NCBI RefSeq assembly: GCF_014205335.1
Contig: NZ_JACHNH010000001.1
Coordinates: forward strand, 7,496,501-7,560,500
Reading direction: 5' to 3'
From: Amorphoplanes digitatis
GTDB lineage: Bacteria; Actinomycetota; Actinomycetes; Mycobacteriales; Micromonosporaceae
DNA: 64,000 bases
Part shown: in pieces, positions 529-55,465 of the stretch
How positions within the stretch are numbered: the first letter of the stretch is position 1
Layout: each line of letters opens with the position of its first letter
The notes under the pieces: model-generated
The model's database searches: none
What the model was told of the DNA's origin: nothing
What the model saw: the letters and a program-made list of their open reading frames with translations, nothing else
Translations under genes and position numbers: made by a program

Positions 529-1275
529 ATGCTGTTCGCGTTTGCCCGCCGGCTGCTCGCCGCCGCGGCCGTGACCGCTTCGCTGCTCGCCGCCGTGCCG
601 ACTCCGGCCCAGGCCGCGCAGCCTGAGGTCACGATGGTTCTTCCGGACATGACCACGCCGGAGCGGACGGTGCTCGTGCCGCCGCAGGAGGACGACTCCA
701 ACCTCGTGCTCCAGCCGACCGTCACCTTCAGCGAGGACTACACGGCCACCAACATCAAGGCTCGCATCACGGTCGACAACGGGCTCTACCTGTCCCGCAT
801 CCGAGCATGTTGCACCCCGTGCGACCGGATCGAGCGCGGCGATATGACCTGCACCGACCTGGGCGGCTGGGCCTTCAAGGCAGGCAAGCCGGAGACCGCG
901 GACTTCGACTTCCTCTACGAGGTCTACCGACTCGGCGTATACGCCGGCCCGACCACCAAGCCCGGGACAGCCACCATGACCGTCACCTTCTGGATCGACG
1001 ACATCACCGTCACCGCCAGCGGGCCGGTGAGGGTGGAGGCCTGGCCGCCGCCATCGACCGGCGCCCCCACCGGCACGCCGAGCGCCACCCCGCCCAGCAG
1101 CAGCGCCGCGATCCCCAGCGCCTCACCGTCGGCTCAGGCGGCGGGGGAGGAAGACGACGACGTCCGGCTTCCGATCACCGGCCCGGCGACCGGCGGTCTC
1201 ATCGCGGGCGGCGTCGCCCTCCTGGTCGGCGGATTCCTCCTGGCCCGCCGCCGGCGAACCCGGTTCGAGGCCTGA
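529..1275 (+). CDS. LPXTG cell-wall-anchored surface protein
   Basis: A 248-residue protein with a Sec signal peptide (residues 1-28, ending AQA|AQ), a secreted domain with a cysteine cluster (ACCTPCDR and DMTCTD), a Ser/Thr/Pro/Ala-rich stalk, and a C-terminal sorting signal. The sorting signal is LPITG, a hydrophobic helix and a RRRRTR tail. By family knowledge this is a sortase substrate that becomes linked to peptidoglycan. The ATG at 529 is chosen because GGGAGG stands about 12 bases upstream and the signal peptide begins there; the longer in-frame extension to 160 has no signal peptide. No sortase gene is in the window. The function of the secreted domain is unknown. Confidence 0.8.
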   Translation: MLFAFARRLLAAAAVTASLLAAVPTPAQAAQPEVTMVLPDMTTPERTVLVPPQEDDSNLVLQPTVTFSEDYTATNIKARITVDNGLYLSRIRACCTPCDRIERGDMTCTDLGGWAFKAGKPETADFDFLYEVYRLGVYAGPTTKPGTATMTVTFWIDDITVTASGPVRVEAWPPPSTGAPTGTPSATPPSSSAAIPSASPSAQAAGEEDDDVRLPITGPATGGLIAGGVALLVGGFLLARRRRTRFEA

Positions 1276-2058: not shown

Positions 2059-4647
2059 TCACTGCAGGATCTCGATATACCCATCGGTTCCGTGTACGCG
2101 GATCCGCTGCCCGTCGCGGATCAGCCGGGTGGCATCGGCCACGCCGACGACGGCCGGCAACCCGTACTCCCGGGCGATCACCGCGCCGTGGGTCATGAGG
2201 CCGCCGACCTCCGTCACCAGGCCCGTGATCGCGACGAACAGGGGTGACCAGCTCGGGTCCGTGTACGCCGTGACCAGGATGTCGCCGGCCTCGAGGTCGG
2301 CCTCCGCCATGTCGAGGATGACGCGGGCCCGGCCCTCCACCGTTCCGGCGGAGACCGGCAGGCCGACCAGGGCGCCGGCCGGCACGTCGTCGCGCCGGTA
2401 CGCGCCGACGATGGCCTCGCCGTCGGACGTGAGCACCCGGGGCGGCGTGAGCGCCTGATACGCCCGGAACGCCTCCTTGCGCTCCCGGATGAGCCGATCG
2501 TCGGACCGGTTGGTGCGTACGACGTCGTGCAACTCCTGGAACGTGAGGTAGAAGATGTCCTCCTTCGCCGCGAGTACCCCGGCCCGCACCAGGCGCTCGG
2601 CCTCCGCCAGCAGGGCGCGCTTGTAGACGAAGTAACGGCTGATGATGTTGTACTTCGGGTACTCCCGATAGCCGATGAAGGTTCGGACCCGGTCGATCAT
2701 CCGTTTGGTCTCGTCGGCCTTCGCCTCGCCGTCCGGCAGGGCGCGGAGGCGTTGCAGCAGTTCCTGTTCCTTGTCCCGCGCCTCCTGCCGGCCCTGTTCG
2801 AAGCGGCGCGCGGCGGCGCCCGGCTCGAACAGCTCGACGTTGTCGAGGATCAGGGGCACGAGCGTGGTGGGGCGTTCGCTCCAGCGCGGCCTCGTGATGT
2901 CGATCTCGCCGACGCAGCGCATGCCGTACCGGTCGAGGTAGGTCTCGATGGCGTCGCGCGCCTCGCTCCCGCCCGGGAGCTTCGGCAGTTCGTCCAGGAA
3001 GCCCTCGTCCTCGACGCGTTGCAGGAACGCGACCACCTCGGGGTACGGGCGGATCACGTCCGCGACGTCGAGCAGCGCGAGGCCCATCTCCGACGTGACG
3101 TTGTCGGGGGCTGACCGCGTGAGCGTGTCGGCCGCGTTCTTCTCGCCCAGCCACTCCGCCAGGCGGTCGTTGAGCCACCAGGTGGCCTCCATGCCCGCCA
3201 TGATCGCCTGAATGCTCAGCGAGTCACTGAGGACCCGCTTGTGCTCCTGGATCGCCTCCAGCAGGAAGTCGAAGAGCGCCGGCCCGGTCTTCGACCGGAT
3301 GTCGTGCCGCAGGGCGGCGGTGGACGTACGGGCGCGTTCGATCAGCTCGGTGACGATGCCCGGATCGGTCTCGATCTGGCCGGACCCGCCGTGCAGCGGC
3401 GGCCGGACGGGGGCGGCGTCGGTGAGCGCCGGGACGAAGTCGCCGCGGTCGAGGATGGTCTCCAGCGCGTCGCTGATCAGCGGGTCGGACCTGCCGACGA
3501 GTTCCATGAAGCCGGCGCGGCTTGCCGGCGCGGCCAGCAGCCTGGTGGCGTCGACGAACAGCCGCCCGCCGGCCTCGTGCATCGGCGCCATGGCCGTGAG
3601 CTGCCACATGGAGATGCCGAGGGGCTTCATGGCGTCGGTCATCATCTGCTGGTGGCCGACGGAGATGTAGACGTGGTTCTCAGCGTCGCCGATCTCGGGT
3701 ACGGGGAACAGCGTGGTGATCGGCCGGCTCTGCACGATGCGGAAGTCGTCGTCGATCAGGCACCATTCGATGTCCTGCGGGCGGCCGAAGTGCGCCTCGA
3801 TCCGCCGCCCGAGCCGCGCCAGCCGCACGGCCTGCGCGTCCGTCAGCGCGGGCTGCTCCTGCCGCGACGGGTCGATCGCCACCTCCCGCGTACCGCCCGC
3901 GGGCTGGGCGTGGATGGCGATCCGTTTGGCGCCGACCGTCTTGGCGACGATCTGGCCGTCGCGCACCGTGAAGACGTCGGGGTTCACCAGGCCGGAGACC
4001 AGCGCCTCGCCGAGTCCGAAGCCGGCGTCCACGGTGGTGACCTTCCGGTTGCCCGTGACGGGGTCGGCCGTGAAGAGGATGCCGGCCGCCTGCGGGAAGA
4101 CCATCTGCTGCACGACGACGGCCATGTGCACCTTCCGGTGGTCGACGCCGTTGCGCAGGCGGTAGATCACGGCCCGCTCGGTGAACAGCGACGCCCAGCA
4201 CCGGCCGAGGTGCTCGAGGATCGACGCCGGGCCGACGACGTTCAGGTACGTGTCCTGCTGGCCCGCGAACGAGGCCGTCGGCGTGTCCTCCGCCGTCGCG
4301 CTGGACCGGACGGCGTAGGCCGTCTGCCCGTCGAGCGCACCGGTGACCGCCGTCGCCACGTCGTCGGGGACGCCGGCACCTTCGATCGCCTGGCGGATCT
4401 CCGCGCTGAGCGCGCGGATCTCGTCCCGGGCGTCGGGGTCCAGCCGCGACAGCCGATCCAGTTGATCGTCGATCGACGGCGCCTGCGCCATGGCCCGCCG
4501 GAAGGCGTCCGTGGTCACGCAGAAGCCGGCCGGCACGTTGATGCCATCGATGCGCGACAGCTCACCCAGGTGCGCGCCCTTGCCACCGACGACCGCGACG
4601 TGCGCCTCGCCGACCTCTTGAAGATCCAACACGTATTGCTCGATCAT
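2059..4647 (-). CDS. rph: Rifamycin phosphotransferase
   Basis: An 862-residue cytoplasmic enzyme of the phosphoenolpyruvate synthase-like rifampin phosphotransferase family, which inactivates rifamycins using ATP. An N-terminal ATP-grasp domain occupies about residues 1-315 (GGKGAHLGELSR; VRSSATAEDTPTASFAGQQD). A central rifamycin-binding region follows, then a C-terminal swivelling phosphohistidine domain. The motif GGLMTHGAVIAREYGLPAVV places the catalytic His at about residue 820. Length matches characterised Rph enzymes (about 860-870) better than PEP synthases. The start at 4647 has GAGGGGG just upstream. A rifamycin-associated element lies 36 bases before the ATG, which strongly supports the assignment. 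Confidence 0.9.
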   Translation of the reverse strand: MIEQYVLDLQEVGEAHVAVVGGKGAHLGELSRIDGINVPAGFCVTTDAFRRAMAQAPSIDDQLDRLSRLDPDARDEIRALSAEIRQAIEGAGVPDDVATAVTGALDGQTAYAVRSSATAEDTPTASFAGQQDTYLNVVGPASILEHLGRCWASLFTERAVIYRLRNGVDHRKVHMAVVVQQMVFPQAAGILFTADPVTGNRKVTTVDAGFGLGEALVSGLVNPDVFTVRDGQIVAKTVGAKRIAIHAQPAGGTREVAIDPSRQEQPALTDAQAVRLARLGRRIEAHFGRPQDIEWCLIDDDFRIVQSRPITTLFPVPEIGDAENHVYISVGHQQMMTDAMKPLGISMWQLTAMAPMHEAGGRLFVDATRLLAAPASRAGFMELVGRSDPLISDALETILDRGDFVPALTDAAPVRPPLHGGSGQIETDPGIVTELIERARTSTAALRHDIRSKTGPALFDFLLEAIQEHKRVLSDSLSIQAIMAGMEATWWLNDRLAEWLGEKNAADTLTRSAPDNVTSEMGLALLDVADVIRPYPEVVAFLQRVEDEGFLDELPKLPGGSEARDAIETYLDRYGMRCVGEIDITRPRWSERPTTLVPLILDNVELFEPGAAARRFEQGRQEARDKEQELLQRLRALPDGEAKADETKRMIDRVRTFIGYREYPKYNIISRYFVYKRALLAEAERLVRAGVLAAKEDIFYLTFQELHDVVRTNRSDDRLIRERKEAFRAYQALTPPRVLTSDGEAIVGAYRRDDVPAGALVGLPVSAGTVEGRARVILDMAEADLEAGDILVTAYTDPSWSPLFVAITGLVTEVGGLMTHGAVIAREYGLPAVVGVADATRLIRDGQRIRVHGTDGYIEILQ

Positions 4648-8932: not shown

Positions 8933-9522
8933 CCCCGCTCCGAATTCAGTTCGAGGGACGAGCCGCCGCCGGAGGTGTCCTCATGCTTGTTCGTGCCGGA
9001 ATTAGGTCCCTCCGGGCGGAACTTGGAGCAGGCCTCCTCGGCCTTGTCGAACGTCGGGTCACCGGGGCCCATGCCGACCTTCCTGCCGTCGATCTGGATG
9101 CTTCCGTCGGGTTTCGGGTCGGGGAACTTCTCGACGCCGTTCTCGCGCATGCACTGCGCCATCTGCCGGGCCTGTTCGAGCATCTCCGGGTCGGCCGGCC
9201 CGTGGTCGCCGCCGTTCGGCGCCCACTTCTTGCAGGCCTCCATGGCGGCGTCGATCTTCGCCTTGTCCGTACCCTTGGGGGGTCTGATCTGAATTCCCCC
9301 GTCGGGCTTCGGGTCGGGGAACCAGCTCAGGCCCTGCTCCCGCATGCACTGCGCGAACTTCAGCGGTGCGTCCTCGTCCCTCTGATCGGGTGCGTCGGCC
9401 GTGGCCGACGTCGTCGGCGTCCCGCCGACCGAGGCAACCCCGTCGCCGGCGGCGGCCTCTCCGCAGCCGGCGGCCGCCGCAGTGAGCAGCAGGCCGAGCG
9501 CGAGAATCCTCCAGCTCCGCAT
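8929..9522 (-). CDS. Lipoprotein with duplicated cysteine module
   Basis: A 197-residue lipoprotein. The signal peptide ends in the lipobox AAAGC. The mature part holds two copies of one module: [20 protein letters not shown] followed by EACKKW, and [20 protein letters not shown] followed by EACSKF. Each copy therefore has a spaced cysteine pair. A highly charged tail follows. The start is placed at ATG 9522 because GAGGGAG stands 7 bases upstream; the ATG at 9537 lacks one. It is the first gene of the export operon and overlaps the adaptor gene by 4 bases. Related proteins are common beside MacB operons in actinobacteria, but their role is unknown; substrate capture is a guess. Confidence 0.75.
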
Positions 9523-9622
9523 CGTCTTCTCCCTCATCGGCGGCCGGACGGCCGCCACGGGATGCAGTGAAGTCCCCGGCGGGTTTCCCGGCCGTCACGC
9601 AAAACGATGACGCCCACGTGAC

Positions 9623-9637
9623 GTGACCGTGGGTCAC
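9623..9637. promoter_or_regulatory. Palindrome GTGACC-GTG-GGTCAC, candidate operator
   Basis: A perfect 6-3-6 inverted repeat lies in the 124-base gap between the divergent export operon and the response regulator gene. It is a plausible binding site for that OmpR-type regulator. It overlaps possible GTG starts (9623, 9629) of the regulator. Confidence 0.45.
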
Positions 9638-9646
9638 CATGGAGGC

Positions 9647-10303
9647 ATGCGCATCCTGGTGGTCGAGGACGAGCCGCTGCTGGCCGACGCCGTCGCGGAG
9701 GGCCTTCGGCACGACGCCCACGCGGTGGACGTGGTCTACGACGGCGCCGCCGCGCTCGAACGCGCCCAGGTCAACGACTACGACGTGCTGGTACTCGACC
9801 GGGACCTGCCGGTCGTGCACGGCGACGAGGTGTGCCGGCAGCTGGCCGGGCGGGACGCGACGATGCGGATCCTGATGCTGACGGCGGCGGCCGAGATCGA
9901 CGACCGGGTCGAGGGGCTGGCGCTCGGCGCGGACGACTACCTGCCCAAGCCGTTCGCGTTCCGGGAGCTGTCCGCCCGGGTCGCCGCGCTCGGCCGCCGG
10001 TCGCGCCCGGCCGCGCCGCCGGTGCTGCGCCGGGCCGGCATCAGCCTTGACCCGCACCGGCGCGAGGTCTTCCGCGACGGCCGGTACGTGCCGCTGTCCC
10101 GCAAGGAGTTCGCGGTCCTGGCCGAGCTGCTGCGGGCCGACGGCACCGCGGTGTCGGCGGAACAGCTGCTGGAGAAGGCGTGGGACGAGAACGCGGATCC
10201 GTTCACCCACGCCGTACGGATGACGATCCTGAAGTTGCGCCGCAAGCTCGGCAACCCGCCGGTGCTGCTCACGGAGCCCGGAGTGGGGTATCGGATCGGA
10301 TGA
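9647..10303 (+). CDS. OmpR/PhoB-family response regulator
   Basis: A 218-residue two-domain regulator. The receiver domain (1-115) has acidic pocket residues E7/D8, phosphorylation site D51 in VLDRDLP and the conserved Lys in LPKPFAF. A C-terminal winged helix (about 128-218) ends with the typical GVGYRI strand. It overlaps the kinase gene by 4 bases and is divergent from the lipoprotein/ABC operon, its likely target. ATG 9647 begins exactly at the receiver fold; GGAGG is only one base away, so the GTG at 9629 or 9623 is possible. Confidence 0.88.
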   Translation: MRILVVEDEPLLADAVAEGLRHDAHAVDVVYDGAAALERAQVNDYDVLVLDRDLPVVHGDEVCRQLAGRDATMRILMLTAAAEIDDRVEGLALGADDYLPKPFAFRELSARVAALGRRSRPAAPPVLRRAGISLDPHRREVFRDGRYVPLSRKEFAVLAELLRADGTAVSAEQLLEKAWDENADPFTHAVRMTILKLRRKLGNPPVLLTEPGVGYRIG

Positions 10304-11427
10304 GACTTACCGTGCGAGGCCGCCTGACCCTGGTGTACGGCAGCCTCTTCCTCGCGTTCGGCGTCGTGATGCTCGGCGTCACCTATGTCCTCGTCTGGCA
10401 GCAGTTGCCCGGCAAGGCCGTCATCCGGGGGGCGACGAACCTCGGGCCCGTCCCCGCGGATCCGACCCTGCCGAAGCCGGAGGCCTACTTCCAGGAGGTC
10501 GTCCGGGAGACCCGCGACGACGCGCTGACCGTGCTGCTCACCCAGGGCGGGATCGCCCTGCTGGTGGTGAGTGCGGTCGCGATCGCGCTGGGCTGGCTGG
10601 TGGCCGGGCGGATGTTGCAGCCGCTGCACCGGATCACCGAGACCGCGCGGCGGATCGCCGAGTCGCCGGCGGCCGACCGCGGCCTGCACGAGCGTATCGC
10701 GCTGACCGGCCCGGACGACGAGATCAAGCAGCTGGCCGACACGTTCGATCTCATGCTGACGCGGCTGGACCGCTCGTTCGACGGGCAGCGGCGGTTCATC
10801 GCGAACGCGTCGCACGAGCTGCGCACCCCGCTGACCCTGAACCGGACCCTGCTGGAGGTCGCGCTCCAGCAGGAGTCGGCGTCGGTGGAGGTGCGGCAGC
10901 TCGGCACGACCCTGCTGGCGATCAACGACCGGCACGGCCGGCTGATCGACGGGCTGCTCACCCTGGCCCGCTCGGAGCGGGAGCTGACCGAGCGCTCGTA
11001 CGTCGACCTCGCGGACATCGCCTCGCACGTGAGCGCGGACGACGTACAGGTCGACCTGGCCGAGGCCGCCACCGTCGGCGATCCGGTCCTGCTCGAACGG
11101 CTGGTGCAGAACCTGGTCGACAACAGCGTGCGGCACAACCTGGCGGACGGCGGCTGGGTGCGGGTCGCCACCTACACGAAGGACGACCTGGCGACGCTTG
11201 AGGTCAGCAACACCGGGCCGGTCGTGCCCCGCTACGAGGTCGAGACGCTCTTCGAGCCGTTCCGCCGGCTCGGCCGGGACCGGCTCGCCGGCCCCGGCGT
11301 CGGCCTGGGCCTGTCGATCGTGCGGGCGGTGGCCCGCGCGCACGGCGGCGAGGTGCACGCCGTGCCCCGCGACGAGGGCGGCCTCGTCGTGACGGTCACC
11401 CTCCCGGCGGCCCGGCCCTGGCAGTAG
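10300..11427 (+). CDS. Two-component sensor histidine kinase
   Basis: A 375-residue membrane kinase. TM1 lies near residues 10-33, followed by a short extracytoplasmic loop, TM2 near 84-106 and a HAMP region. The HisKA domain has H172 in FIANASHELRTP. The HATPase domain has N-box LVQNLVDNSVRHN and G-box GPGVGLGLSIV. It phosphorylates the regulator encoded 4 bases upstream. The short sensor loop (about 50 residues) suggests sensing at the membrane, as in many antibiotic-responsive kinases placed next to MacB-type exporters. Confidence 0.9.
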   Translation: MRLTVRGRLTLVYGSLFLAFGVVMLGVTYVLVWQQLPGKAVIRGATNLGPVPADPTLPKPEAYFQEVVRETRDDALTVLLTQGGIALLVVSAVAIALGWLVAGRMLQPLHRITETARRIAESPAADRGLHERIALTGPDDEIKQLADTFDLMLTRLDRSFDGQRRFIANASHELRTPLTLNRTLLEVALQQESASVEVRQLGTTLLAINDRHGRLIDGLLTLARSERELTERSYVDLADIASHVSADDVQVDLAEAATVGDPVLLERLVQNLVDNSVRHNLADGGWVRVATYTKDDLATLEVSNTGPVVPRYEVETLFEPFRRLGRDRLAGPGVGLGLSIVRAVARAHGGEVHAVPRDEGGLVVTVTLPAARPWQ

Positions 11428-17360: not shown

Positions 17361-19090
17361 GTGACTCCGGCACCACCGCATCGGCGGAGGACGGATCGGC
17401 GGCGGGCGCGCCAGGCGCCGGCATGCCCTCGGTGGAATTCACCCACCGGCAGATCCTGACCATCCTGACCGGCCTGATGATGGGCATGTTCCTCGCCGCC
17501 CTCGATCAGACGATCATGGCAACGGCGACCAAGACCATCGCGGACGACCTCAACGGCTTCAACCTCCAGGCCTGGGCGACCACGGCGTTCCTGATCACGT
17601 CGACGATCTCGACCCCGCTGTACGGCAAGCTGTCCGACATCTACGGGCGGCGGCCGTTCTTCCTGTTCGCGATCGCGGTCTTCATCATCGGCTCGATCCT
17701 CTGCGGTCTCGCGCAGAGCATGTACGGGCTGGCCGCCTTCCGCGCGATCCAGGGCATCGGCGCCGGCGGCCTCATGTCGCTGGCCCTGGCGATCATCGGT
17801 GACATCGTGCCGCCCCGCGAGCGCGCCAAGTACCAGGGCTACTTCCTGGCCGTCTTCGGCACCGCGAGCGTCGTCGGCCCGATCCTGGGCGGCTTCTTCG
17901 CGGGCGCCGACACGATCCTGGGCGTCGACGGCTGGCGCTGGGTCTTCTACATCAACGTGCCGATCGGCGCCGCCGCGATGATCGTCGTGGCCCGGGTGCT
18001 GCACCTGCCGCACATCCGCACCCCGCACCGCATCGACTGGCCCGGCGCGCTCTTCCTCGTCGTCGGCCTGGTGCCGCTGCTTACCGTCGCCGAGCAGGGC
18101 CGCACCTGGGGCTGGGACTCCGGCCGCGCGTTCCTCTGCTACGCGATCGGATTGATCGGCATCGTGGCCTTCATCTTCGCGGAGCGGGCCTACAAGGACG
18201 AGGCGATGCTGCCGCTGCGGCTGTTCAACAACCGCACGGTCGCCGTCGGCGCCACCTCGAGCACCATCCTGGGCATGGCGATGTTCGGCGGCCTGATGAC
18301 CGTCCCGCTGTACCTCCAGATCGTGAAGGGCGCCTCGCCGACCGTCGCCGGCCTGGAGATGATCCCGTTCGTGGCCGGCATCATGGCCGGCTCGATCACC
18401 GCCGGCCAGCTCATCGCCCGGACCGGCCGCTACCGGATCTTCCCGATCATCGGCAGCGTGCTGATGGCGACCGCGCTGGCCCTGTTCGCGCTGATCGACG
18501 CGGACACCCCACTGTGGCGCACCATGCTGATCATGGTGCTGATGGGCCTCGGCCTGGGCGGCAACATGCAGCCGATGATCACCGCGGTGCAGAACGCGGT
18601 GTCGCCGCGGGAGATCGGCGTCGCGACCAGCACTGTCACCTTCTTCCGGTCGATGGGCGGCACGCTGGGCACCGCGATCTTCCTGTCGGTGCTCTTCAAC
18701 GTGCTACCGGGAAACATCAACGACGAGCTGACGGCGGCGCGGGAGACGCCCGCGTACCAGCAGGCGGCATCGGACCCGGCGCAGCTGAAGATCCTCCAGC
18801 AGGCGCAGCACGAGGGGCTGAGCGACACGTCGTTCATCGGCAAGCTGTCCGACGTCATGGCGCACCCGTTCAAGGCCGGCTTCTCCGACAGCTTCCAGGT
18901 GGTCTACCTGATGGCGCTGGCCATCATGCTGATCGGCCTGATCGTGGTGCTCTTCCTGCCGGAGATCCCACTGGCACAGCGGTCGGCGCAGCAGCAGCGC
19001 GCCGACGACGCCGCGGCCGCGGCCAACTGCGACGGTGTGCCCGGCGGGGTCGGCGCCGGCCCCGACGCGGAGATCAAAAGCTCCTATTGA
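17357..19090 (+). CDS. DHA2 (EmrB/QacA) family MFS drug exporter
   Basis: A 577-residue, 14-helix proton antiporter. LAALDQTIMATATKTIADDL is the family motif in helix 1, KLSDIYGRRPFF is the loop 2-3 motif A, and the region after GTASVVGPILGGFF is motif C, which marks exporters. The GTG start overlaps the MarR gene. The C-terminal tail is hydrophilic and alanine-rich. A hairpin terminator follows 20 bases after the stop. Substrate unknown; multidrug efflux is likely. Confidence 0.9.
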   Translation: MSDSGTTASAEDGSAAGAPGAGMPSVEFTHRQILTILTGLMMGMFLAALDQTIMATATKTIADDLNGFNLQAWATTAFLITSTISTPLYGKLSDIYGRRPFFLFAIAVFIIGSILCGLAQSMYGLAAFRAIQGIGAGGLMSLALAIIGDIVPPRERAKYQGYFLAVFGTASVVGPILGGFFAGADTILGVDGWRWVFYINVPIGAAAMIVVARVLHLPHIRTPHRIDWPGALFLVVGLVPLLTVAEQGRTWGWDSGRAFLCYAIGLIGIVAFIFAERAYKDEAMLPLRLFNNRTVAVGATSSTILGMAMFGGLMTVPLYLQIVKGASPTVAGLEMIPFVAGIMAGSITAGQLIARTGRYRIFPIIGSVLMATALALFALIDADTPLWRTMLIMVLMGLGLGGNMQPMITAVQNAVSPREIGVATSTVTFFRSMGGTLGTAIFLSVLFNVLPGNINDELTAARETPAYQQAASDPAQLKILQQAQHEGLSDTSFIGKLSDVMAHPFKAGFSDSFQVVYLMALAIMLIGLIVVLFLPEIPLAQRSAQQQRADDAAAAANCDGVPGGVGAGPDAEIKSSY

Positions 19091-19109
19091 CGACAGACCG
19101 ACGACCATC

Positions 19110-19138
19110 GGGTACGGGCGCAGCGCGCGCTCGTACCC
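19110..19138 (+). terminator. Hairpin terminator after the MFS gene
   Basis: A 12-bp stem with one G-U pair (GGGTACG pairing with CGTACCC at the base, GCGC inner arms) is followed by TTTGT. Its right arm contains the -10 box of the next gene. Confidence 0.7.
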
Positions 19139-19139
19139 T
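19134..19139 (+). promoter_or_regulatory. Leaderless -10 box TACCCT for mhuD
   Basis: TACCCT ends 7 bases before ATG 19147 and overlaps the descending arm of the preceding terminator. Confidence 0.55.
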
Positions 19140-19146
19140 TTGTCGT

Positions 19147-19449
19147 ATGGCAGTCGTGAAGATCAACGCAATCGAGGTGCCCGAGGGCGCCGGTCCCGAG
19201 CTGGAGAAGCGCTTCGCAGCGCGGCAGGGAGCCGTGGAGAACGCGCCCGGTTTCCTGTCTTTCGAGCTGCTGCGCCCGGTGGCGGGCGAGACCCGCTACT
19301 TCGTAGTCACCCGCTGGTCGAACGATGAAGCCTTCAGAGCATGGTCAGAAGGAAGCGGTCGCGCGGCACACGCCGGGGAGCGCGCCCGCCCCGTCGCCTC
19401 GGGCGCCAGCCTGCTGGAGTTCGAGGTGGTCCAGCACGTGACGAAGTAG
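19147..19449 (+). CDS. mhuD: MhuD-like haem-degrading monooxygenase
   Basis: A 100-residue IsdG/MhuD-family protein closely resembling M. tuberculosis MhuD (start VVKINAIEVP, end ASLLEFEVV). The catalytic positions are all present with the same numbering: N7, W66 and H75. By family knowledge it cleaves haem to release iron, and MhuD produces mycobilins without CO release. It is transcribed separately from the MFS gene, from a leaderless promoter. No haem-uptake genes are adjacent. Confidence 0.9.
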   Translation: MAVVKINAIEVPEGAGPELEKRFAARQGAVENAPGFLSFELLRPVAGETRYFVVTRWSNDEAFRAWSEGSGRAAHAGERARPVASGASLLEFEVVQHVTK

Positions 19450-45629: not shown

Positions 45630-46038
45630 GGGACCCGTTGGGCCGCTCGGGTGCGTCCATCGTCTGGCCCACCCGGACCACGAGCATGGCCATCTCGTAC
45701 GCGATCAGGCCCAGGTCCGCGTCGCTGGTGGCCACCACCGCGAGGCATGCGCCCAGCCCGGCCGCCGTGACCAGGAGGAACGCGTCCTCCATCTCGACAA
45801 CGGTCTGGCGCACCGGGCCGGCCCGGAAGTGCCGGCTCGCCCCCTTGGCCAGGCTCTGGAAGCCGGCGGCCATCGCGGAGAGATGCTCGGCGTCCTCCCT
45901 GCTCAGAGCGGCGGATGCGCCCATCATGAGCCCGTCCGCCGACAGCACCACCGCCTGCTGCACCGACGGCACCCGCTCGACGAGGTCGTCGAGGAGCCAG
46001 GTGAGGTTGGCGCTCTGGTGGTTCGTCGTGTGTGCCAC
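45619..46038 (-). CDS. cvnB: Conservon roadblock/LC7 protein CvnB
   Basis: A 139-residue roadblock/LC7-domain protein (LTWLLDDLVERVPSVQQAVVLSADG in two halves around residues 12-36; AGLGACLAVVATSDADLG). Such proteins act as GTPase-regulating partners, here of CvnD. The GTG start overlaps the cvnA stop by one base. Confidence 0.9.
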   Translation of the reverse strand: MAHTTNHQSANLTWLLDDLVERVPSVQQAVVLSADGLMMGASAALSREDAEHLSAMAAGFQSLAKGASRHFRAGPVRQTVVEMEDAFLLVTAAGLGACLAVVATSDADLGLIAYEMAMLVVRVGQTMDAPERPNGSHAR

Positions 46039-49000
46039 TATGCGTCCTTCTCCGGCCGGTTCTCGTGGTTCTCGTGGTTCTCTTCGGGCGCGCTGTCATC
46101 ACCTGCGGGAATCCCGGCCACCACCGGGCTCTGCACCGCCGGGAACGTGACGGTAGCCGCCTCCGACAACGCCCGCGCCCCCAGCGTCCCCTCTTTGTCA
46201 GTGACTGATGTCTCGTCGGTTTTCTCCGGGCTCTTCCCGGTGCTCAGGGCGGCCGCCGCGAGACGGCCCTCGGAGGTGCCGCGCTGTAGCGCGCTCATCA
46301 GGTTGCGGACCTGCTCCGGTGAGCGGGAGGTGCCGGCGGTGACGCGCTCGGCGACCGGACCGCGCAGCTGCGGCGCGAGGCTGGCCTGCCGCACCCGCCG
46401 GGGCAGCAGCTCCTCGTCGGCCTCCTCCAGCGACTCGCCGGACACCGGCGGCAACTGGCCGGGCACCGGCGGCGACTCGCCGGGCACCCGCGGCGCGAGA
46501 TCCGCCTCGGGCACGAACGGGTCGGAGCCGAGCAGGTCGGGCTCGTTGCCCGGCAGGGCGGGATCCGCCGCGGGAGCGATCGGGTCGGGCTCGGCGCGCG
46601 GGGCGGGGATGCGGGGCTTGAGCGGCGCCGGTGCGGGGCCTGACAGGGCCGTCGGACCGTCGCCGTGCCGCAGCGGGGTGCCGCCGGCCAGCCCGTTGCC
46701 GCCCGCCAGCCCGTTGCCGCCCGCCAGCCCGTTGCCGCCCGCCAGCCCGTTGCCGCCCGCCAGCCCGTTGCCGCCCGCCAGCCCGTTGCCGGCCGACGGG
46801 AGCTCCATCGGGGTCAGCCCGGCGGGCGAGGTCAGGTTCGGCGGAAGCAGGGCCGGCGGCGCCGAGGGCCCGCCCTTGGCGGGGCGCGGCCGGGTGCGGC
46901 GGCGCTGCACCAGGCCGTCCTCGGTGAGCCCCTCGACCACCGCGCTGGGGCTCGGCCCGCTCGGCTCGGCCGGCGGCCCCAGGTCGATGGCCGTGTCGGC
47001 CAGGTCCGGGCCGGCCGTGGCGGTTCCGTTGATCGTCACCGGGCGGCCGGCCACCGAGATGGAACGCAGCTCCTCGGTGCCCTGCCACTGCAACTCCGCG
47101 AGCGAGGGGCGGGACGGATCCTCGGTGCCCGTGCCGACCAGCGGGCGGTCCCACGACCTGTCGGCGGGCGACGGCCCGAGGGGCAGCGCGTTGCGGCCCG
47201 GCCCGGGCGTGACGAGATCGCCCGGCACCAGCACCACCGCGGTCACGCCGCCGTAGCCGCTCGTGCGCAGTGACACCCGGATGCCGTGCCGGTTGGCCAG
47301 CTGGGCGACCACGAAGAGGCCGAGCCGGGCGCTGTCCGCCGGGTCAAAGTCGGGCGGCTCGAGCAGCTTGCGGTTGGCCTCGGCGAGCGCCTCGGGCGAC
47401 ATGCCCAGGCCGCGGTCCTCGATCTCCAGCGCGTAGCCGTTCGGCAGGACCTGGCCCACGACCTGGACCCGGGTCCGCGGCGGGGAGAACGAGGCCGCGT
47501 TCTCCAGCAGCTCGGCGACCAGGTGGATGACGTCGCCGACGGCCCGGCCGAGCACCGCGGCGGCCTCGATCGAGACGATGTCGACCCGCTTGTAGTCCTC
47601 GACCTCGCTGATCGCGCCGCGGACGACGTCGATCACCGGCACCGGGTTGCGCCAGCCGCGACCGGGCGCGGCGCCGGCCAGGATCACCAGGTCCTCGGCG
47701 TGGCGGCGCATCCGGGTGGCGAGGTGGTCGACGCGGTAGAGGTCCTCGAGCTCGTCGGGCTCGGTCTCGCGCCGCTCCATGCGGTCGAGCAGCGCGAGCT
47801 GGCGGTGCAGCAGGGTCTGGCTGCGCCGGGCGATGTTGAGGAAGACCTCGTTGATACCGCGCCGGACGTTGGCCTCCTCGACCGCCGACTGCACGGCCGT
47901 GCGCTGCACCTCGTTGAACGCGCGGCCGAGCTCGCCGATCTCGTCGCGGCCGTACTCCATGGGCGGGGTCTCGACCTCGACGTCGACCGCCTCGCCGCGC
48001 TGCAGTCGCCGGACGACCGACGGCAGCCGCTCGGTGGCCATCTCCAGCGCCTCGCCGCGCAGCCGGGTCAGGCGCCCGACCATCGAGCGGCCGACGCGCA
48101 GCGACACCACGACCGAGACGACGACCGCGATCAGGCCGAGCAGGCCGGCCAGCCCGAGCCGGATGAGCACCTTGGTGGCGACCGGTATGGCCTCCTGCGC
48201 GAGCGAGTCCGCGGCGTTGATCTCGAACGCGCGCACCTGCTGCACGGAGGTGTCGAAGGCCGGCTGCCACGACGCGTCCGTCACGGGCGCCGTGAGGCCG
48301 GGGCGGCTGTCACTGACCAGAATGTCCTGCAGCTCGCGGAGCCGGTTGAACGAGGCGCCGTTGCTGAGCCGCCGGTACGCCGCGCGGTCACGGTCGGGCA
48401 GGTCGAGGACGCCCTGCGAGAGCAGGAAGCGCGAGGTGGCGATCGACTGCAACAGCTCGGTGCGGCCGGCCGGGCTGAGCTTGCCGGCCGCGTGCGCGCC
48501 CGCGACCAGCGAGTCCGTGCGGTTGAGGTGCTCGCGGCCGCGGCCGATCATGGTGAGGCCGCGGATCTGGCGGTCGATGCGTTCGTCGTTGAACGTGGCG
48601 AGCGCCGCGTACATCTGGAACGTGCCGTCGACCATGCCGTTGTAGAGGTTGTGCGCGCCGATCGGGTCGACCTCGCGGCGGTCGATGTGCAGGCGGTTGG
48701 CGGCCAGCCCGTCGAGGTCGGAGAAGACCTGCTGGATCCGGGCCTCGAGCGTGTCGGTCGCGGCGCCCCGGGCATCGTCGCTGGCCGCGGTGCGCCGGAA
48801 GTCGGTGGCGGCCCGGTCGGTGGCGGCGCGCTGCGCGATGAGCGCCGCGGAGCTGCTCTTCTCGTCGGAGAGGAACTCCACGGAGAGCCTGCGCTCGCGC
48901 TGAAGCTCGCCCGTCAGCACCTCGCCGGGGGTGCCAACGGTGTCCAGCAGGGTCTGTGCCGACATCAGGTTGAGCGCCGGGCCGACGGTCAGCGCCGTCG

Positions 49001-49088
49001 CGAAGACCCAGAGCGCGAGCAATGCCGCCAGCGGCACCGCCACCATCGCGATGATCTTCGAACGGATCGACCAGTTGCGGGTTCTCAT
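46038..49088 (-). CDS. cvnA: Conservon sensor histidine kinase-like protein CvnA
   Basis: A 1016-residue membrane protein. TM1 (about 12-35), an extracytoplasmic nitrate/nitrite-sensing (NIT) domain, TM2 (about 300-322), HAMP and a HATPase domain follow in order. N-box LLENAASFSPP, G1 EDRGLGMSPEAL and G2 LGLFVVAQLANRHG are present. As in other CvnA proteins there is no clear HisKA phosphoacceptor His. A long disordered C-terminus contains six GNGLAG units (765-800). ATG 49088 follows GGAG; an upstream start at 49136 has no support. Confidence 0.88.
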   Translation of the reverse strand: MRTRNWSIRSKIIAMVAVPLAALLALWVFATALTVGPALNLMSAQTLLDTVGTPGEVLTGELQRERRLSVEFLSDEKSSSAALIAQRAATDRAATDFRRTAASDDARGAATDTLEARIQQVFSDLDGLAANRLHIDRREVDPIGAHNLYNGMVDGTFQMYAALATFNDERIDRQIRGLTMIGRGREHLNRTDSLVAGAHAAGKLSPAGRTELLQSIATSRFLLSQGVLDLPDRDRAAYRRLSNGASFNRLRELQDILVSDSRPGLTAPVTDASWQPAFDTSVQQVRAFEINAADSLAQEAIPVATKVLIRLGLAGLLGLIAVVVSVVVSLRVGRSMVGRLTRLRGEALEMATERLPSVVRRLQRGEAVDVEVETPPMEYGRDEIGELGRAFNEVQRTAVQSAVEEANVRRGINEVFLNIARRSQTLLHRQLALLDRMERRETEPDELEDLYRVDHLATRMRRHAEDLVILAGAAPGRGWRNPVPVIDVVRGAISEVEDYKRVDIVSIEAAAVLGRAVGDVIHLVAELLENAASFSPPRTRVQVVGQVLPNGYALEIEDRGLGMSPEALAEANRKLLEPPDFDPADSARLGLFVVAQLANRHGIRVSLRTSGYGGVTAVVLVPGDLVTPGPGRNALPLGPSPADRSWDRPLVGTGTEDPSRPSLAELQWQGTEELRSISVAGRPVTINGTATAGPDLADTAIDLGPPAEPSGPSPSAVVEGLTEDGLVQRRRTRPRPAKGGPSAPPALLPPNLTSPAGLTPMELPSAGNGLAGGNGLAGGNGLAGGNGLAGGNGLAGGNGLAGGTPLRHGDGPTALSGPAPAPLKPRIPAPRAEPDPIAPAADPALPGNEPDLLGSDPFVPEADLAPRVPGESPPVPGQLPPVSGESLEEADEELLPRRVRQASLAPQLRGPVAERVTAGTSRSPEQVRNLMSALQRGTSEGRLAAAALSTGKSPEKTDETSVTDKEGTLGARALSEAATVTFPAVQSPVVAGIPAGDDSAPEENHENHENRPEKDA
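46687..46794 (-). repeat. Six tandem 18-bp repeats inside cvnA
   Basis: The unit GCCAGCCCGTTGCCGCCC occurs six times in tandem. The first five copies are identical and the sixth has one substitution. They encode a six-residue Gly-Asn-Gly-Leu-Ala-Gly repeat in the C-terminal tail. Near-identity suggests recent expansion by slippage. Confidence 0.92.
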
Positions 49089-49515
49089 CAGACTCCGCCC
49101 GAGGGGATGCAGGACCTGCGTGGCGCAGGCCGACACGGCCGTCGACGCATGTTAACGGCCGTTTTCGAGCTGAGCACGCCTTCGGCAGGATACGTAATGG
49201 ACGCGATCGGAGCTAGCTCCAGTACGTGCCATAATAAAGCGGACTGTCCTAATTGTCCTGGGGGAACGACATGCGTATCAGGTCGCTCTTTAACAAATCT
49301 CACGACAAACAACCCCGCACCGGCCCGGCCGCGCCGGGGTCGCCGGGCGATCTGTCCGCTTCCGGTCAGTCGAGGGGCGCCACCGGGTCGGCGCCGGTCC
49401 GCAACGAATCGGGTTCTCCGACCACACAGACGGAGGGTTTTCACGCCGGGCTGTCGAATCGGATTGATGACCCTGGTTGGGTGGGCATATCCAGGGGTGA
49501 AGAAGGAGGAATCCG
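49089..49515. other. Divergent region between the conservon and FVDSP genes
   Basis: A 427-base gap that must carry promoters for both directions. It contains the 12-bp perfect palindrome GGAGCTAGCTCC (49209-49220) and CATAAT (49230-49235, plus strand). The minus strand has repeated AGGACA words near 49243-49260. A frame from ATG 49270 (82 codons) has GGGGGA upstream but mixed codon usage; I treat it as unproven. Confidence 0.45.
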
Positions 49516-50160
49516 ATGTCCCCCACAGTCGTGATCATTCTCATCGTCGTCGCGCTGCTGGTCGTCGCCGCCGTTGTCTACGGCGTACGCACCGGCCGCC
49601 GCAAGCAGCTGCGCACCAGGTTCGGCCCCGAGTACGACAAGGTGGTCGGTGACGCCGACAGCCGTTCGGAGGGCGAGCGGGAGCTCCGCGAACGCGAGAA
49701 GCGGCACGCCGAGCTCGAGCTCAAGGAGCTGTCGGCCGAGTCGAAGGCGAAGTACTCGGTCGCCTGGGAAGAGGTCCAGATCCAGTTCGTCGACTCACCC
49801 GGCGAGGCCGTGTCCACCGCCGACGGGCTGGTCACCCAGCTCATCACCGAGCGCGGCTACCCGACCGGCGACTACGACGACCGGCTGGCCGACCTCTCCG
49901 TCGCGCATGCACAGACCCTCGAGCACTACCGCGACGCGCACGCGATCAGCGAACGCAGCGCGGCCGGCGAGGCGAACACCGAGGACCTGCGCCAGGCACT
50001 GGTCCACTACCGCGCACTCTTCGCCGACCTGCTCGGCGAGAACCCCGTCCGCACCGACGGCGCCTCCGACGCGGCGTCCACGCCGACGGTACCGACCCAG
50101 AAGATCAACAACCACGACAGCGACGTCGCGGGCTCCCGTCCCGACGCCACGAGCCGCTGA
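49516..50160 (+). CDS. Membrane-anchored protein with FVDSP domain
   Basis: A 214-residue protein. An N-terminal helix (about 4-25) anchors a charged, coiled-coil-prone segment (SRSEGERELREREKRHAELE). The conserved domain follows: YSVAWEEVQIQFVDSPGEAV, DRLADLSVAHAQTLEHYRDA and LRQALVHYRALFADLLG. AAGGAGG is six bases before the ATG. The domain recurs in the next gene. Proteins of this kind are frequent in actinobacteria but have no known function. Confidence 0.75.
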   Translation: MSPTVVIILIVVALLVVAAVVYGVRTGRRKQLRTRFGPEYDKVVGDADSRSEGERELREREKRHAELELKELSAESKAKYSVAWEEVQIQFVDSPGEAVSTADGLVTQLITERGYPTGDYDDRLADLSVAHAQTLEHYRDAHAISERSAAGEANTEDLRQALVHYRALFADLLGENPVRTDGASDAASTPTVPTQKINNHDSDVAGSRPDATSR

Positions 50161-50172
50161 GGAGCCCTGATC

Positions 50173-51288
50173 ATGAGATTCTTCTCCAACGACGCGCGCG
50201 AAGCCGACGACGAGTTGGCGCTCGACGACCGGCCTGATCGGGTCCAGTCCGACCCGGTCGCGGTGCCGAACCAGCGGCCGCCGTCGCCCTGGTCGAACAC
50301 GCCGTCGGCCGGCGACGGCGACCGCGAAACCGCGGACGACGAGCCGCGCGACCGCACCGCCGACCCGGCCGCCGACGCGGTGGACGACCCGGCGGACGAC
50401 GACAAGACCGCCGGGCCCGGTGACCGGACCACCGCCTTCGGCGTCGCGTCACCTCAGGAGAACCGGTGGGGCGCCGTGCCCGACGCGGACACCCCGTACG
50501 CGGGCAGCGCCGCCGTCACGGCCCCGGCCGACACCCGGCTCGACGACGAGGACCGCGTGGACGCGCACGACCACGGCGGCCCGGCCGACGATGTCGACGT
50601 CCCCCTGGACGAGCCCGCCGCGGGCGAGAAGTCCGAGGAGGACGAGGACGCCGAGGAGGCCCGGGCGCGGTCCGATGAGGGCGACCCGGACGCGGTCGGC
50701 TCCGAATCCGCCGAGGAGGAGGACGAGGACGAGGACGACGGTCCCGAGGCCGTCGGGACCGCCACCGACGCGGCCGGCGACGACGTGCCGGCCGACTCCG
50801 AGACCGCTGTCGACGACACCGACGAGCCCGCGGACGAAGATCGGCCCGGCGAGCCCGCGGCCGTCGCCCCGGTGACCGACGCGCCGCTCGCGGCCGACGA
50901 CACCCCGGCGGCCGACGAGACCCCGGCGACGGACGAGCCCGCCACGGACGACACCGCGGCGGCCGACACCGTTGCCGCCGCTGCCGCCGTACCGGTGGCG
51001 GTGGGTGCGGCCGCGACCGGGGCCGCCGCCAAGACCGAGACGATCTTCGGCGCGGACGACGCCAAGTCGTTCCAGGAGCGCTGGCGCGAGGTGCAGCTGC
51101 GCTTCGTCGACAGCCCGAAGGACGCCGCCGCCGAGGCGACGACGCTCATCGACGAGGCGGTGGACAAGCTGACGGCCGGCCTGAAGGCGCAGCGGGACGA
51201 GCTGATCGACGACACCGAGGACACCGAGCGGCTGCGCCTTCAGCTGCGCGGGTACCGGGACATCCTCAACCGCATCCTCAGCCTGTAG
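50173..51288 (+). CDS. Acidic disordered protein with C-terminal FVDSP domain
   Basis: A 371-residue protein. Residues 1-285 are Asp/Glu/Ala-rich and disordered (EEEDEDEDDGPEA). The last 75 or so residues repeat the neighbouring gene's domain (FQERWREVQLRFVDSPKDAA, ending LRGYRDILNRIL). No membrane helix is clear, although AVPVAVGAAATGAAA is mildly hydrophobic. It starts 12 bases after the previous gene and is cotranscribed. The pair may form a complex through the shared domain (inference). Confidence 0.72.
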   Translation: MRFFSNDAREADDELALDDRPDRVQSDPVAVPNQRPPSPWSNTPSAGDGDRETADDEPRDRTADPAADAVDDPADDDKTAGPGDRTTAFGVASPQENRWGAVPDADTPYAGSAAVTAPADTRLDDEDRVDAHDHGGPADDVDVPLDEPAAGEKSEEDEDAEEARARSDEGDPDAVGSESAEEEDEDEDDGPEAVGTATDAAGDDVPADSETAVDDTDEPADEDRPGEPAAVAPVTDAPLAADDTPAADETPATDEPATDDTAAADTVAAAAAVPVAVGAAATGAAAKTETIFGADDAKSFQERWREVQLRFVDSPKDAAAEATTLIDEAVDKLTAGLKAQRDELIDDTEDTERLRLQLRGYRDILNRILSL

Positions 51289-53014: not shown

Positions 53015-55465
53015 CTATCTGGTACGGGACAGGAACGCTACGGCGTCGTCGAGGGCGGCCCAGCCGCCGGGAAGTTCGTCGGAGTCGAGCGCGGTCCGCA
53101 GCCTCAGCGTGCCGCCGTCGCGCAGGCTGAGATCCCAGCTCCGGCGCCGGGCCCGCGTGGCGCCGGCGACCTCGGCGTAGGGCACGAACCGGCTGCCCGG
53201 CACGTCGGCGTCGCGCTGAGGCGCGTCGGCCGCGGCGAACCGCGCCAGCCGCCGCTTCGCGGAGCCGTTCTGCGAGCGCGGCAGCCCGGGCACCAGGAAC
53301 AGCCCGGTGTCGACGATCAGCACGTCCGTCCGGGCGCCGTCGACCACCAGGTTGACCACCCCGCCGACCACCTCCGGCCGGGCCTGCGCGGCCTCCGCGC
53401 CGGGCGCGGCCGCGGCGTCGATGCCCAGGGCGGCCAGCCGCTCCCGGGCGGCGGCGACCGTCGCCGGGTCGCTCGCCTGCGCGGCCAGGCCGCCGAGGTC
53501 GAGGTGGGAGGAGTCGGCGGCGACGAGCTCGGCGGAGCCGGTCCAGCTGTGCCGCCAGCGCGCGGCGCCGCTGCGCAGCGCGGCCAGCGCGAGTAGCAGC
53601 GTGACCAGCTCGGCCACCCGGCCGGCGGTGTCCTCGTCGGACAGGCCGGTGAAGACGGACTCGGCGGCCTTGTGCAGTCGGCCGTCCGCGGCGAGGTCCA
53701 GCACGTCCGCGGCGTTCACCACGGGCTCGCCCGCGGCGCGCGAGATCGTGGCCAGGGCGGCGTCGGCCTCGCGCTGCATCTCGACGGTCCGGGCCACGCC
53801 GAAGAACGCGTCCCAGCCGACGGTGGTGCGGCCCTGCGGCGGGAACGCGACGCCCTGTAGCGCCCGGCCCAGCCCGGGCAGATCGGGAACGAGATCCCCG
53901 GCGGGCGCGCCGAGCCCGGCGCCGTCGCGGATACCCGTGGCGGCCCGCGTGGCGGCACCGGCCGCCGCCGTCCCGGTGCCCGGCACCGAAGCGGCCCCCG
54001 CATCCGGGTCCGCGCCGCGCGCGGCCTGGTGCCCCGCGGGCTCCCCCGGGCCGGTCGCCGCGGAATCCCCGGGCGCGCCGGCCGACAGGCCCGACGCCGC
54101 CGGCACATCCTGGCCACCAGGGCCGGCCGTCCCGGCACCCGGCTCCTCGGCCGGCACGACCGAAGCCTCGCCCTCCGCGACTGGGGCTCCAGCCTCCGCG
54201 ACCAGAGCACCGGCCTGCGCAGTCGGGGCTCCAGCCTCCACGATCAGAGCGCCGGCGTGCGCGGAAGGAGCGCCGGCCTGCGCAGTCAGGGCTTCACCCT
54301 GCGCGGGCGCGCCACCGGCCTGCGCGGGCGCGCCACCAGCCTGCGCGGACGCGGCACCAGCCCGCGCGGACGCGCCACCGGCCTGCGCCTGCGTGGCACC
54401 GGCCCGCGCGGACGCGCCACCAGCCTGCGCCTGCGCAGCACCGGCCCGCGCGGACGCAGCACCAGCCTGCGTGGACGCAGCACCAGCCTGCGCCTGCGTG
54501 GCATCGGCCTGTGCGGACGCCGCTCCGGTCTTCGTGTTCGGGGCTTCGGTCAGGGCCAGGGCGGCGAGGCGGTCCGCCACCGGCGGGTGGGTGTCCCAGG
54601 CCGGCGGCGTGCCCGGGTCGCGGGCGCGCAGCACCGCGACGTCGTTCGCGCGGGCCGCCAGCACCCGCAGGAAGCCGCCGAAGATGTCGTCCGGCACGTG
54701 ACCGGCCTGCCAGCCCGGCCCGAGGTATTCCGCGTGGAAGATCCGCTGGAGGGCGTCGAGGGCGGGCAGGTCGCGCAGCACGGCCATCGCCGTGGTGCGG
54801 CCCGCGTATTCGGCGGCGATCCGGTCCGCGGCCAGCTCCTGCGCCCGGCTGAACGGCGCGTCGACCCGGCGGTAGAACTTCGCGTAGGTCTGGATCAGCG
54901 GGCCGGCCGGGTTGCGCCGCGAGATGCGTGGCACCGTCCGGGCGACCGCCACCCGCCCGCGGTAGGCCAGCGGCGCGAGCCGGCCCAGCCGGGGCGAGAA
55001 GTGGCCGAGCTCGTGCGCGGCGACCGCCCGCAGGTGCGCCTCGTCCCAGGCCTGTAGCAGCGGCAGGCCCAGGTAGAGATCGCGACGGCCGCCGATCAGG
55101 CCGAGCAGGTGCGTGCGTTCGATGATCTTCGCGGTGGCGTCGGCGACGATCGTGACCCGGTCGGGCGCCCGGGTGCCGGCCGCCGCGGCGGCGCCGTCGA
55201 GCAGCGCCCAGAGCTGCGGCGCGTCGGGGCGGGCCACCGGGATGCCGATCGGCTCCCGGCGCCGGGTGTGCAGGGCACGCCAGGTCGCGTAGGCCATCAC
55301 GCCGACGGTGGCGATGCAGACCGGCACGCCGAGCCGCAGCGCGGTCCGGCCCGGGAGCATCGAGAGCAGCAGCAGGACCGGCACCACGACGAGCGCGAGC
55401 TGCGCGCCCGCGACGATCAGAAATCCGCCAAGCGCGGTCGCCGACGCCAGCACCCTGTTCTGCAC
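53015..55465 (-). CDS. M48-type membrane zinc peptidase with heptapeptide repeat insert
   Basis: An 816-residue protein. Two N-terminal helices (12-38, 44-62) precede an HtpX/Ste24-like domain with HELGH (H151, E152, H155) and third ligand E210 in RAQELAADR. A DTHPPVADRLAAL segment closes the peptidase. A long Ala/Gly/Gln tract of about 17 seven-residue repeats (about 312-432) separates it from a C-terminal region (about 540-816). That region has a PH-like end (RFVPYAEVAGATRARRRSWD). The GTG at 55465 is supported by a leaderless TAGGCT box. It is probably an envelope quality-control protease. Confidence 0.8.
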   Translation of the reverse strand: MQNRVLASATALGGFLIVAGAQLALVVVPVLLLLSMLPGRTALRLGVPVCIATVGVMAYATWRALHTRRREPIGIPVARPDAPQLWALLDGAAAAAGTRAPDRVTIVADATAKIIERTHLLGLIGGRRDLYLGLPLLQAWDEAHLRAVAAHELGHFSPRLGRLAPLAYRGRVAVARTVPRISRRNPAGPLIQTYAKFYRRVDAPFSRAQELAADRIAAEYAGRTTAMAVLRDLPALDALQRIFHAEYLGPGWQAGHVPDDIFGGFLRVLAARANDVAVLRARDPGTPPAWDTHPPVADRLAALALTEAPNTKTGAASAQADATQAQAGAASTQAGAASARAGAAQAQAGGASARAGATQAQAGGASARAGAASAQAGGAPAQAGGAPAQGEALTAQAGAPSAHAGALIVEAGAPTAQAGALVAEAGAPVAEGEASVVPAEEPGAGTAGPGGQDVPAASGLSAGAPGDSAATGPGEPAGHQAARGADPDAGAASVPGTGTAAAGAATRAATGIRDGAGLGAPAGDLVPDLPGLGRALQGVAFPPQGRTTVGWDAFFGVARTVEMQREADAALATISRAAGEPVVNAADVLDLAADGRLHKAAESVFTGLSDEDTAGRVAELVTLLLALAALRSGAARWRHSWTGSAELVAADSSHLDLGGLAAQASDPATVAAARERLAALGIDAAAAPGAEAAQARPEVVGGVVNLVVDGARTDVLIVDTGLFLVPGLPRSQNGSAKRRLARFAAADAPQRDADVPGSRFVPYAEVAGATRARRRSWDLSLRDGGTLRLRTALDSDELPGGWAALDDAVAFLSRTR
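54170..54530 (-). repeat. Degenerate 21-bp tandem repeats in the M48 gene
   Basis: About seventeen 21-base units encode AGAASAQ-like heptapeptides. Central units (for example 54300-54363) are nearly identical while the edges are more diverged. Confidence 0.85.

Follow-up and report, generated by a model that had tools for sequence, protein, structure and literature searches.

Peptidases of family M48 such as HtpX and Ste24/ZMPSTE24 combine N-terminal membrane helices with an HExxH motif and an invariant Glu downstream of it; according to PMC9263693, the proteolytic domain of HtpX faces the cytoplasm. Periscope proteins, as presented in PMC8201768, are membrane-tied bacterial proteins that vary in length through tandem repeats, with repeat numbers that differ between strains, the repeats being folded domains that form stalks on the cell surface. 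For folds of seven strands and a C-terminal helix, a comparison is offered by the bacterial PH-like domains described in PMC2817789 (PHb, PF08000 and related families). Low-complexity regions of prokaryotes, in the account given by PMC6821194, are enriched in Ala, Gly and Pro and depleted in hydrophobic residues, and the stress is laid on conserved regions.

We compared with these systems a gene in a window of 64,000 nucleotides from Amorphoplanes digitatis, the genome of which is a single contig of 9.13 Mb. The predicted protein has the HExxH motif, the downstream Glu, the N-terminal membrane helices and the Pfam M48 assignment in common with HtpX and Ste24/ZMPSTE24; unlike them, it possesses a linker followed by a helical plus PH-like module (Table 1), and no later hydrophobic stretch rises above threshold except residues 617–635. 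Its last domain is predicted to have the strands and helix of bacterial PH-like domains; however, it has no Pfam PH match and is fused to an M48 peptidase. Tandem-repeat length variation in a membrane-tied protein recalls periscope proteins, but here the repeats are seven-residue units, predicted to be disordered and probably cytosolic, rather than folded domains. Finally, the linker has the composition of prokaryote low-complexity regions, although it is not conserved between species. A literature search at the level of titles and abstract openings found no description of the M48-helical-PH-like architecture, its absence from print being unproven.

RESULTS

The gene and its domains

Table 1. 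Features of the gene and of its predicted protein (window coordinates)
Feature	Coordinates	Strand	Residues	Remarks
Coding sequence, GTG start	53015..55465	minus	816 aa	M48 peptidase, disordered linker (predicted), helical part and PH-like part, in this order
N-terminal hydrophobic hairpin	55274..55438	minus	10–64	two predicted membrane helices, then LHTRRRE
Pfam Peptidase_M48 match	54554..55063	minus	135–304	E 2.3e-9, Pfam search
HExxH zinc motif HELGH	55001..55015	minus	151–155	sequence and alignment of 13
Glu210 (EL.AD motif)	54836..54838	minus	210	invariant in alignment A1; probable third zinc ligand
Low-complexity hypervariable linker	53897..54556	minus	304–523	comparison of relatives and pLDDT
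Heptad tract	54173..54529	minus	313–431	17 units of 21 bp or 7 residues each, similar to AGAASAQ; higher-order periods of 42 and 63 bp
Mostly helical part	53396..53815	minus	551–690	no Pfam match above cut-off; includes hydrophobic window 617–635
PH-like domain	53018..53386	minus	694–816	seven strands and C-terminal helix in model
Loop of PH-like part	53189..53233	minus	745–759	low-complexity inserts in many orthologues, not in the window's protein

An earlier note, made from the letters of the window, had read this gene as an M48 membrane protease, and the reading frame was indeed found at 53015–55465, with a match to PF01435 that scores 37.8 bits against a cut-off of 20.3 and thus exceeds the curated threshold for peptidase family M48. 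In the window's frame, 26 further codons are open upstream of 55465; because an in-frame stop lies 12 nt before the equivalent GTG in relatives L093, L094 and L095, position 55465 is the earliest start that they have in common, later starts being possible. The locus is mostly syntenic: in 60 of 64 loci the protease gene has upstream of it, in the same orientation, a gene that looks GH20-like from its sequence, and in 60 of 64 a gene for a small protein follows it downstream, again in the same orientation.

Residues H151, E152, H155 and E210 were invariant in alignment A1 (13 sequences); the role of Glu210 as third zinc ligand is presumably that known from the M48 family. No PDB entry matched the protease part by sequence at E 1. 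Structural comparison of the model (VIA-align 2) matched the protease fold to ZMPSTE24 (Z 9.7, rmsd 5.7, 184 aligned), abylysin (Z 8.1, rmsd 3.0, 101 aligned) and HtpX (Z 8.0, rmsd 2.7, 91 aligned); Ste24p reached Z 10.6 but with rmsd 13.8, and BepA was also among the structural matches. By motif and predicted fold, then, the protein is an M48 zinc peptidase. With the HtpX equivalog NCBIfam model PRK05457.1 it scored 12.4 bits, far below the cut-off of 245.

Ahead of the protease domain, Kyte–Doolittle analysis gave hydrophobic windows at residues 5–43 and 42–60, and the AlphaFold model has helices at 2–34 and 39–66. The basic stretch LHTRRRE follows these two helices; therefore, by the positive-inside rule, the charges suggest that the protease domain and the linker lie on the cytosolic side. 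One later window exceeds the threshold (residues 617–635, mean 1.69) and overlaps model helix 610–631; should this stretch be membrane-spanning, the PH-like part would come to lie on the other side.

The last 123 residues model as a PH-like domain, as the earlier note had proposed, with strands and helix predicted in the order of the PH superfamily. The best PH-type fold match (VIA-align 2) was MTMR1, both for the whole model (Z 10.2, rmsd 2.0, 79 aligned) and for the C-terminal model (Z 8.9, rmsd 1.8, 77 aligned), Z values little above the usual best background of 7–8. Most of the listed PDB matches to residues 694–816 are taken to be PH-superfamily domains, and the list is fairly uniform. 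Foldseek gave no match to the models at E <= 0.001, and Pfam gave nothing above cut-off for the C-terminal part, the PH families included. Residues 694–816 are supported as PH-like at the level of predicted fold; the fold searches barely probe the helical part (551–690), to which no fold is assigned. Matches to the C-terminal part were seen in 77 of 150 family genomes, the window's own included, and in five of 197 class genomes (own included; two of the five belong to the family and three are weak).

A heptad array made by duplication of DNA

About seventeen heptapeptide repeats over about 120 residues had been claimed, and this count stood: the tract comprises 119 residues in 17 units of seven. 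AG[AG] opens 14 of the 17 units and Gly is present in 16; the tract holds five Pro and seven hydrophobic residues in 119, and 44% of it is Ala. Over 20 units (residues 313–452) the protein is identical to itself at lag 7 at a rate of 0.51, far above the 0.21 +/- 0.03 of 10,000 shuffles of the same stretch (maximum 0.33); at lag 14 the value rises to 0.59. DNA identity of the same stretch at lag 21 is 0.68, with slightly higher values at lags 42 (0.72) and 63 (0.70). Redealing codons while keeping the protein gave a lag-21 mean of 0.60 and a maximum of 0.66; because the observed identity exceeds all 10,000 redeals, the heptads are duplicated DNA, with a unit of 21 bp and longer multiples. In TRF, the best row for the tract has a 63-bp period (score 272), and the 21-bp row scores 229.

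The central units had been described as nearly identical, which is true of pairs 10/11 and 6/8 (one base of 21 differs in each) and not of units 3–11 overall, where units differ on average at about 18–19% of sites. Comparison of the units with one another gives a pN/pS of 0.82 over all 17 and of 0.95 over units 3–11. For units 13–17, where pairs are few, diverged and not independent, it is 0.48, which could reflect some constraint.

The tract does separate the protease from the C-terminal part, as had been noted; however, it makes up only about half of the linker, which is 220 residues long. AlphaFold gives pLDDT < 50 over residues 310–524, and within the heptad tract block values of 24–44 with one low-confidence helix at 317–338. 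We conclude that the linker is probably disordered, low pLDDT from 13 sequences being a weak sign of disorder.

The linker among relatives

We searched 67 genomes of the genus for the protease part and found it in 65 at E 1e-100; in the other two the gene is split or fragmented (in a first search of the genus, 60 of 60 genomes had matched). Linkers could be measured in 64 of the 67 genomes, the window's included. Locus L057, at a contig end and devoid of a C-terminal part, was left out of all length counts; also outside the 64 are G001, split over two contigs (linker of 100 aa, read in L165), and the fragmented G032. L079 was omitted from the correlation and the tree.

The linkers range from 11 to 285 aa with a median of 34.5, a comparison between species in which the window's own is represented by one strain. 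By protease domain, the closest named relatives are Amorphoplanes auranticolor and A. nipponensis. The three nearest relatives are 87–91% identical to the window's protein in this domain, the identity of L182 being taken from two pieces; their linkers, which lack the window's heptads, measure 142, 178 and 236 aa. Together with the window they form a supported clade (100/97) with long linkers throughout (142–236 aa). The claim that the spacer evolves fast was thus borne out: among orthologues it proved neither absent throughout nor constant in length. Orthologue pairs 95–98% identical in the protease domain differ in the linker as well (109/117, 58/37 and 72/105 aa).

The orthologue of the nearest relative (L182 of genome G166, 3395–4313) is read in two frames with a break near residue 83, caused either by an assembly error or by damage to the gene; its length count is that of the second piece.

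Two adjacent AG[AG] heptads were found in none of 57 orthologues scanned and in none of seven more read by eye. Other linkers bear unrelated units: VSGPGAPATSA in L045, SPEPAA in L055 and a 24-residue unit in L058. When 23 orthologue linkers of at least 40 aa were scanned for period, lag 7 was best in L054 only, where the heptad, KEDTGPA, is charged and unrelated to that of the window.

Linkers of 20 aa or less occur in 23 of 62 orthologues; because these keep both domains, a long tether, judging from the sequences, is not needed. A paralogue of the same architecture has 13–25 aa at the equivalent joint in 22 of 22 loci read (the best 22 of 33 long second matches).

Two C-terminal loops, at about residues 606–611 and 745–759, also accumulate low-complexity inserts in orthologues. 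Between linker length and C-terminal inserts the Spearman coefficient is −0.24 (p 0.06; 62 orthologues, kinship uncorrected), and more than 30 aa of extra C-terminal length is present in 10 of 23 short-linker orthologues vs 7 of 39 longer-linker ones; in 10 orthologues there is little of either. One could see here a hint of a trade-off between linker length and C-terminal inserts.

Many short-linker orthologues (L069–L089, as compared with the rest) bear inserts in the PH-like loop at about 745–759. L071 (genome G057) has a 16-aa linker, five low-complexity inserts totalling 349 residues in two C-terminal regions, and tandem units of its own.

Tandem arrays in the same genome

In a sample of 800 kb spread evenly over the genome, TRF reported 205 arrays with score >= 50, the best period being divisible by three in 182 of them. 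As many as 13 arrays scored at least 272, the heptad array's own value; the heptad array is, therefore, typical of its genome.

We also considered a dispersed repeat or mobile element and rejected it: scoring of 40 of the 241 candidates in its own genome showed the 359-bp tract complete at a single place, and a second match of 37 bp (E 1.2e-4) was taken as chance after inspection. Among the 67 genus genomes, with ten candidates scored in each, only three others matched at E 1e-10, none of them at the orthologous place.

Another array is located within the window at 46679–46795 (TRF score 220; six and a half 18-bp copies with 97% matches). It encodes the hexapeptide GLAGGN in the C-terminal tail of a gene that we named by eye as sensor-kinase-like (46038–49136, minus strand), and it is a coding minisatellite of the same kind. 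Elsewhere in the genome, in L115, two arrays of a 138-bp unit (9370–11082 and 17666–19422, about 12–13 copies each, 6.6 kb apart) score far above the heptad array. At 49516–51288 of the window, two adjacent plus-strand genes have, by eye, a similar C-terminal stretch, W..VQ..FVDSP..A; the second of them contains a long Asp/Glu/Ala/Thr low-complexity tract.

DISCUSSION

We regard it as likely that the gene encodes a membrane-anchored, probably cytosol-facing M48 protease with a disordered, weakly constrained tether that was lengthened by in-frame tandem duplication. Slippage or unequal exchange would have made tandem copies of the 21-bp unit, and of its 42- and 63-bp multiples, where sequence and length are under weak constraint, with selection keeping the reading frame; the heptads would then be a species-specific coding minisatellite. 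Duplication of this kind would explain the repeat, the units peculiar to other lineages and the inserts in the C-terminal loops. As to function, we infer a disordered cytosolic tether carrying the helical plus PH-like module on the membrane-bound protease. By analogy with HtpX, and this is the weakest step, the protease would probably work in membrane-protein quality control; its PH-like part may bind a partner or the membrane. Some observations count against this explanation: long linkers are kept in the window's clade, pN/pS is low in units 13–17, and the hydrophobic window 617–635 is present.

The long linkers of the clade, where length persists and sequence does not, could instead mean that a selected length sets the range of the PH-like module from the protease, periscope-like but on the cytosolic side. 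Length differences between orthologues of nearly identical protease domains and the fixed short joint of the same-domain paralogue in the loci read would fit such an adjustable distance; yet orthologues with linkers of 20 aa or less retain both domains, inserts at about 606–611 and 745–759 would not set such a reach, and comparable arrays are common genome-wide, so we consider this reading improbable. A shade less probable again is the speculation that in this genus the bulk of the disordered tract is conserved, whereas its sequence and even its position (in the linker or in a loop of the PH domain) shift; evolution would then tune a cytosolic tether, or a crowding element, in a protease of membrane quality control, with the paralogue fixed.

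Neither of the roles that the earlier note had thought possible for the spacer, that of a helical rod and that of setting its reach across the wall, was supported. Ala-rich heptads in a rod or coiled coil could fix the distance between domains or dimerise the enzyme, as the seven-residue period over 17 units, the Ala content and the low-confidence helix might suggest; but Gly in 16 of 17 units, five Pro, so few hydrophobic residues and pLDDT of 24–44 make this very unlikely, large hydrophobic residues predominate at no position of the heptad (3 of 17 units at the most), whereas they would at positions a and d of a coiled coil, and among the orthologue linkers scanned a best period of seven recurs only in L054, with an unrelated unit. 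Stalks rich in Ala, Gly, Gln, Pro and Ser are frequent in surface proteins, and the protein is predicted to be membrane-anchored, both points in favour of an extracellular spacer across the cell wall; however, the charges of the N-terminal hairpin put both ends of the hairpin in the cytosol, the protein has no LPxTG motif, and the related HtpX has, as cited above, a cytoplasm-facing proteolytic domain. We would give such a spacer hardly any credence.

Under the preferred explanation, tandem duplication where constraint is weak, the array is a coding minisatellite of an ordinary sort, within an M48 protease of soil actinomycetes: the heptad is one species' version of a linker that is probably just a tether. 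A striking repeat in a single genome is, as a matter of caution, poor ground for assigning function. The M48-helical-PH-like architecture, with a C-terminal part that has no Pfam match above cut-off, represents a small annotation gap in a bacterial family. The locus also provides a natural series (one mostly syntenic place, 64 linkers of 11–285 aa and a paralogue as internal control) in which the growth of disordered linkers through coding minisatellites could be measured for high-GC actinomycetes.
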